Shown piece after piece: positions 1-546 of a stretch of 6,223 bases of DNA. Location: contig JASBUM010000408.1 in NCBI GenBank assembly GCA_030147905.1, positions 1 to 6,223 of the forward strand, in the 5' to 3' direction. How positions within the stretch are numbered: position 1 is the stretch's first letter; each line of letters starts with the position of its first letter. The notes under the pieces are model-generated. The model was not told the DNA's origin. It saw only the letters and a list, made by a program, of their open reading frames with translations, and did not search any database. Both the position numbers and the translations under genes were made by a program. The DNA is from Acidimangrovimonas sp. Its GTDB lineage: Bacteria; Pseudomonadota; Alphaproteobacteria; Rhodobacterales; Rhodobacteraceae.

Positions 1-546
1 AAGCGTCTCTCGCCAGCGCAGCTTGCGGCAGGCGCCACCCTCGCCCACGGGGGCGTTGGAACAGCGTGGCCACAGGTCGCGCGCGCCCTGCGGGGCGAAT
101 GTTTCGGTGAAACTGCCGGCACGCTGCATCGGCACGGGCGCGCCGTTCAGCCACAGGCGGCCGCCGCGGATCTGCACCAGATCACCGGGGAGACCGATGA
201 TCCTGAGCACCATCGCCCCCCGCGCGCCCCCACCGGGCCCCCGCGCGAACAGCGCCACGTCGCCGCGGCGCGGCGGGGAATAGAGGATACGCCCGCGGAA
301 GGGACACAGATCAAAGGGGCAGGATGCCCGCCCGTAGCCATAGGCGGCCCGGTTGACCAGCACAACGTCGCCGATGCGCAACGTGTTCTTCATCGCCGGC
401 GACTCGATCACGTAGGGACGCAGGAACAGTGTCCCGAAAACCCCCGTGACGATGATGAGGAAAACCACGAATTTCGTCCGCGAGAACCATCGTCCGAAGA
501 TCCACGGCGTGCGCCGGCGTGCGAATTGCAGCCGCGATCTAGGCAT
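1..546 (-). CDS. lepB: LepB-like signal peptidase I family protein lacking the catalytic Ser/Lys (5' part, runs off left edge)
   Basis: The visible 182 residues form the N-terminal part of an S26-family (LepB) protein. After a basic N-terminus there is one membrane segment at about residues 26-43, followed by box-B-like IESPAMKNTLRIGD (47-60), RGDVALF (94-100) and IIGLPGD (116-122). Cysteine pairs C76/C81 and C162/C173 lie in the periplasmic part. Active LepB has the nucleophile Ser just before the Met of box B; here that residue is Ala51 (codon 394-396). The general-base Lys, just before the Arg of the RxxGLPGD stretch, is Leu114 (codon 205-207). The Ser equivalent to E. coli Ser88 is kept (Ser49). 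The reading frame is uninterrupted, so I infer a non-catalytic paralogue rather than a decaying gene. The ATG overlaps the end of acpS by 8 nt (ATGCCTAG), which suggests coupled translation. The C-terminal part, including the last conserved box, is outside the window. The family call is firm; peptidase activity is doubtful. Confidence 0.88.
   Translation of the reverse strand, partial: MPRSRLQFARRRTPWIFGRWFSRTKFVVFLIIVTGVFGTLFLRPYVIESPAMKNTLRIGDVVLVNRAAYGYGRASCPFDLCPFRGRILYSPPRRGDVALFARGPGGGARGAMVLRIIGLPGDLVQIRGGRLWLNGAPVPMQRAGSFTETFAPQGARDLWPRCSNAPVGEGGACRKLRWRETL

Follow-up and report, generated by a model that had tools for sequence, protein, structure and literature searches.

The window analysed here, 6,223 nucleotides of contig JASBUM010000408.1, comes from a close relative of Solirhodobacter (Rhodobacterales) and ends inside a gene, here termed pseudo-lepB, whose product is a homologue of type I signal peptidase (SPase I, or LepB; family S26) with Ala and Leu at the sites of the catalytic Ser and Lys. 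LepB is essential, serves as an antibiotic target and is usually regarded in bacteria as a single-subunit enzyme. The pseudo-lepB frame is read on the minus strand from position 546 to 1 (182 codons) and is open at the left end of the window, with the C-terminal third of the protein beyond that edge; its ATG start shares 8 bases with the 3′ end of acpS. The features referred to below are the following.

1..546, minus strand: pseudo-LepB, an S26 signal peptidase homologue with Ala51 and Leu114 for Ser and Lys (Pfam and NCBIfam matches, alignments, full-length relative P0002)
391..396, minus strand: codons 51-52, GCG ATG, with Ala at the catalytic Ser site and Met next (codon listing and alignments)
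205..207, minus strand: codon 114, CTC, with Leu at the catalytic Lys site (codon listing and alignments)
418..474, minus strand: single N-terminal membrane anchor, about residues 25-43 (sequence reading; AlphaFold2 model of P0002)
539..1021, minus strand: acpS, holo-ACP synthase (frame list, Pfam, NCBIfam)
1018..1974, minus strand: protein without known family, membrane/coiled-coil by eye, just upstream of acpS

Retained scaffold and loss of the catalytic dyad

Pseudo-LepB exceeds the curated cut-offs for the Peptidase_S26 domain (Pfam PF10502, 64.8 bits against a cut-off of 22.9) and for bacterial signal peptidase I (NCBIfam TIGR02227, sigpep_I_bact, 65.5 against 47), and it is predicted to adopt the SPase I fold, in agreement with the conserved scaffold noted in the preliminary description. 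A protein search also returned P0002, a complete sequence of 276 amino acids that is 95% identical to the window copy, has the same Ala and Leu and, in its AlphaFold2 model, shows a helix spanning residues 16-41. Pseudo-LepB thus shares with the LepBs of E. coli and Rhodobacterales the predicted fold, the membrane anchor, the RGD and GLPGD boxes and the place after acpS, together with box E, GDNRDNSxDSR, which is complete in P0002 (GDNRDNSADSR) and lies beyond the window end in the window copy. It differs from them in lacking the catalytic Ser and Lys, in having Glu for E. coli Pro87 and in a basic N-terminal extension, and from the Rhodobacterales LepBs also in a two-residue insertion before box D.

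A phmmer alignment to E. coli SPase I (1t7d) places IESPAMKNTLRIGD opposite IPSGSMMPTLLIGD, and MVLRIIGLPGD opposite YIKRAVGLPGD. Catalytic Ser90 and Lys145 (numbering as in PMC4049620) fall opposite Ala51 and Leu114, so that both the window copy and P0002 lack the nucleophile Ser before Met and the general-base Lys. The same replacements appear in alignments with Rhodobacterales LepBs, and the presence of a LepB homologue without its dyad, as first proposed for this DNA, is confirmed. In these alignments no shifted neighbouring residue was seen to supply the dyad, because Ser49 and Lys53 have counterparts in Rhodobacterales LepBs alongside an intact dyad, and Arg115 is the conserved Arg that follows the Lys.

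Both residues are kept in each of the 14 LepBs encoded by the seven nearest genomes, in the LepBs of three relatives from a contig scan and in 33/33 relative rows of the alignment shown, a set that lacks one copy each of L002 (the second) and L003 (the first), both of which the 14-copy alignment covers. When all proteins fetched by then except P0001 were scored against a LepB profile, 236 of the 245 had Ser and Lys; the other nine, which lack them or do not cover the sites, were P0002, the fragments P0004 and P0098, P0089 (Ser/Thr), P0015, P0016, P0017, P0081 and P0100. No cleavage would be expected of a protein from which Ser and Lys are gone, and, judged from its sequence, pseudo-LepB is very probably a dead enzyme.

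A probable active LepB beside the dead copy

Among the genomes compared, the nearest to the window by Rsh were G649 (90%) and G185 (89%), and in the rsh tree the window falls beside or within the genus of G649 (85/87, not starred). This genus comprises seven genomes, including Solirhodobacter olei (G001, locus L001), each with two lepB genes. The first, lepB1, directly follows acpS in all seven, and lepB2 adjoins it in six; the G650 pair is interrupted by contig ends and presumably adjacent. Two of the 14 copies are truncated at contig ends, with the dyad region intact. A dead copy within this genus was considered and ruled out, given Ser and Lys in every copy, which makes the genus a natural comparison for the lineage with a dead copy after acpS. 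A homologue of the 1018..1974 gene lies just upstream of acpS in 7/7 of the two-lepB genomes, as in the window. The protein itself matches nothing in Pfam or NCBIfam at E 0.001, and 6 of 196 genomes drawn from the order match it at E ≤ 1e-5, strongly only in G649 and G185. G324, a neighbouring genome, lacks a gene of this type and yielded a single lepB match.

Among the best 120 of 7812 matches we found P0135, a LepB of 262 amino acids with Ser and Lys. Its identity is 70-80% with the lepB2 copies, 68-70% with lepB1 and 81% with the only LepB of G324; in the tree it groups with lepB2 and P0139 (84/95, not starred). Its contig measures 7931 bases, as does that of P0002; because of this match in length we infer that both genes share one contig, in the order acpS, pseudo-lepB, lepB. 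Together with the two-lepB relatives, this suggests that a lepB with Ser and Lys probably lies just left of the window, where the preliminary description had advised looking for one, and that the dead copy is probably not the organism's only LepB. The expected second gene is thus probable, its presence in that place being deduced from P0135 and the relatives. Another lepB2-like protein, P0128, has SGSL for SGSM, with Leu replacing the Met after the nucleophile.

Comparison with other dyad-less S26 proteins

Signal peptidase homologues of this kind are already known from Gram-positive bacteria, and the window adds a genuine pseudo-signal peptidase from the lepB operon of a Rhodobacterales bacterium; a literature search of open-licence PMC papers turned up no earlier description of an inactive SPase I in this order. 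PMC12445088 bears out the precedent first cited for this gene, describing Staphylococcus aureus SpsA as an SPase I homologue without the two conserved catalytic residues, reported to be dispensable, with SpsB as its active paralogue. Pseudo-LepB resembles it in being dyad-less in a genome with a presumed active paralogue, but SpsA belongs to another bacterial phylum, and the two are likened by description and not by sequence. Streptococcus pyogenes SipA may be taken as a further precedent. According to PMC4049620, it has a conserved cleft, has lost the dyad and is essential in pilus assembly, its peptide binding not being measurable; it carries Arg for Ser278 and Asn for Gly272, whereas P0002 keeps both positions. 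SipA is encoded in a pilus cluster, whereas the visible neighbours of pseudo-lepB are the housekeeping genes acpS, pdxJ, DUF2062, rsh and rpoZ, the opposite side lying beyond the window.

Dyad losses also occur in DUF805-S26 fusions, a separate family of 340-360 amino acids with a DUF805 domain in most of the listed cases, whose named members include Marivivens and a Paracoccaceae metagenome-assembled genome. Five of the 11 aligned proteins of this type lack one or both residues, which suggests, as far as sequences go, repeated loss of catalysis in the family. The five are P0015 (no precomputed DUF805 domain), P0016, P0017, P0081 and P0100; the residue pairs found are A/K, S/A, S/D, Y/G and A/R, with the GDxRD box largely kept, and the remaining six are P0014, P0018, P0019, P0020, P0028 and P0046.

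Maintained function or slow decay

On balance, we favor a catalytically dead SPase I paralogue in the first lepB position after acpS, probably upstream of an active LepB, with a non-cutting role; that the gene is kept for a function seems a little more secure than this reading as a whole. Pseudo-LepB would be unable to cleave. With less certainty, it would be anchored in the membrane, the domain lying in the periplasm, and its signal-peptide-binding strands would be retained in outline. A non-cutting partner is favored because the remaining fold, with these strands, survives in outline and because SipA and SpsA offer precedents. Such a protein might engage certain preproteins or pair with the active LepB, although a specific preprotein- or LepB-binding mechanism is proposed tentatively, at somewhat less than even chances. 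Should it prove to be maintained, an inactive paralogue encoded in one operon with LepB would suggest that Gram-negative export has a regulatory or accessory subunit, comparable to SpsA and SipA in Gram-positives. We regard as unlikely the most elaborate version, in which a dedicated non-cutting Gram-negative signal peptidase subunit, made together with and just upstream of active LepB, binds signal peptides or LepB and adjusts the choice of exported proteins that undergo processing, having arisen by subfunctionalization of an ancient lepB1-lepB2 tandem.

The strongest alternative, still rather unlikely in our judgment, is a redundant lepB in slow decay: the other LepB sufficed, the dyad and then further residues drifted, and the scarcity of stops in GC-rich DNA kept the frame open. 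The second LepB that this requires, one with Ser and Lys, is apparently present, and several further observations weigh against a maintained function or also fit relaxed selection. The window copy and P0002 are separated from every active copy by >4 changes per site, a very long branch, and the dead type is known from these two sequences only. Of 77 residues that do not vary among the 26 closest LepBs of the set, pseudo-LepB lacks 21; by the same leave-one-out count the active but distant LepB P0022 lacks 16, and therefore divergence alone says little. In a neutral-decay simulation to 50% identity, with substitutions only, 39/400 and 20/400 runs stayed free of stops (5-10%), so that an open frame is weak evidence in GC-rich DNA. 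Conservation of the fold may partly predate the loss of the dyad, and the change of Pro87 to Glu implies that peptide binding may differ.

The trees add to these points. In one, a starred set unites the pseudo pair with lepB1, lepB2 and G324; in a second, it joins the single LepB of G324 (98/82, starred) and not lepB1 or lepB2. Constraining the pair with lepB1 (approximately unbiased test, p 0.071) or with the lepB2 set (p 0.232) was not rejected, so that the pair may or may not stem from the tandem. P0135 is as close to single LepBs (G324 81%, P0138 82%) as to lepB2.

Against decay, pseudo-LepB keeps 34 of 37 invariant residues, compared with 97 of 219 majority matches elsewhere. These invariant counts (21/77 and 34/37) depend on the choice of rows in alignment A3, whose 38 comparison sequences were hand-picked from the fetched proteins, leaving out the DUF805 fusions, several of them dyad-less; some were retrieved through words common with P0002, which biases them toward agreement with it. 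Neither the window part nor full-length P0002 has a stop or frame damage, the start overlaps acpS and third-position GC is usual.

The dead-paralogue reading also faces two much weaker rivals. Cleavage by way of other residues, for example Ser49 and another base, would fit the complete box E of P0002, including the Ser and Gly positions normally beside the Lys, but is highly improbable: position 114 is Leu, neither Lys nor His, Ser49 and Lys53 occur in dyad-bearing relatives too, and SPase I relies on Ser90 and Lys145, according to PMC4049620. Weaker still is a sequencing or assembly artefact, or a sole LepB misread, since, even though the window stops inside the gene and the source of P0002 is possibly not independent of the window DNA, P0002 has the same two changes while differing at 9/182 residues, which marks it as a distinct sequence and bears out the initial judgment that error is an unlikely origin, and P0135, a LepB with Ser and Lys, comes from a contig as long as that of P0002.

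When P0002 was searched against 394 family genomes and 61 relatives of G185, none of the matches listed exceeded 53% identity; a repeat at E ≤ 1e-90 was empty but adds little, covering, to judge from its list, largely the genomes of the 394-genome search and having no positive control. The minus-strand order in the window is rpoZ, rsh (spoT/relA), DUF2062, pdxJ, the protein without known family, acpS and the LepB-like gene. AcpS has 160 amino acids here and the matches of relatives stop at its residues 131-136, with the C-terminal extension reaching into the pseudo-lepB start. The NCBIfam model "type IV secretion system effector BspA" gives the DUF2062 protein (2765-3457, minus strand) 111 bits, well short of the cut-off of 300; this is an annotation trap and does not make the protein an effector.
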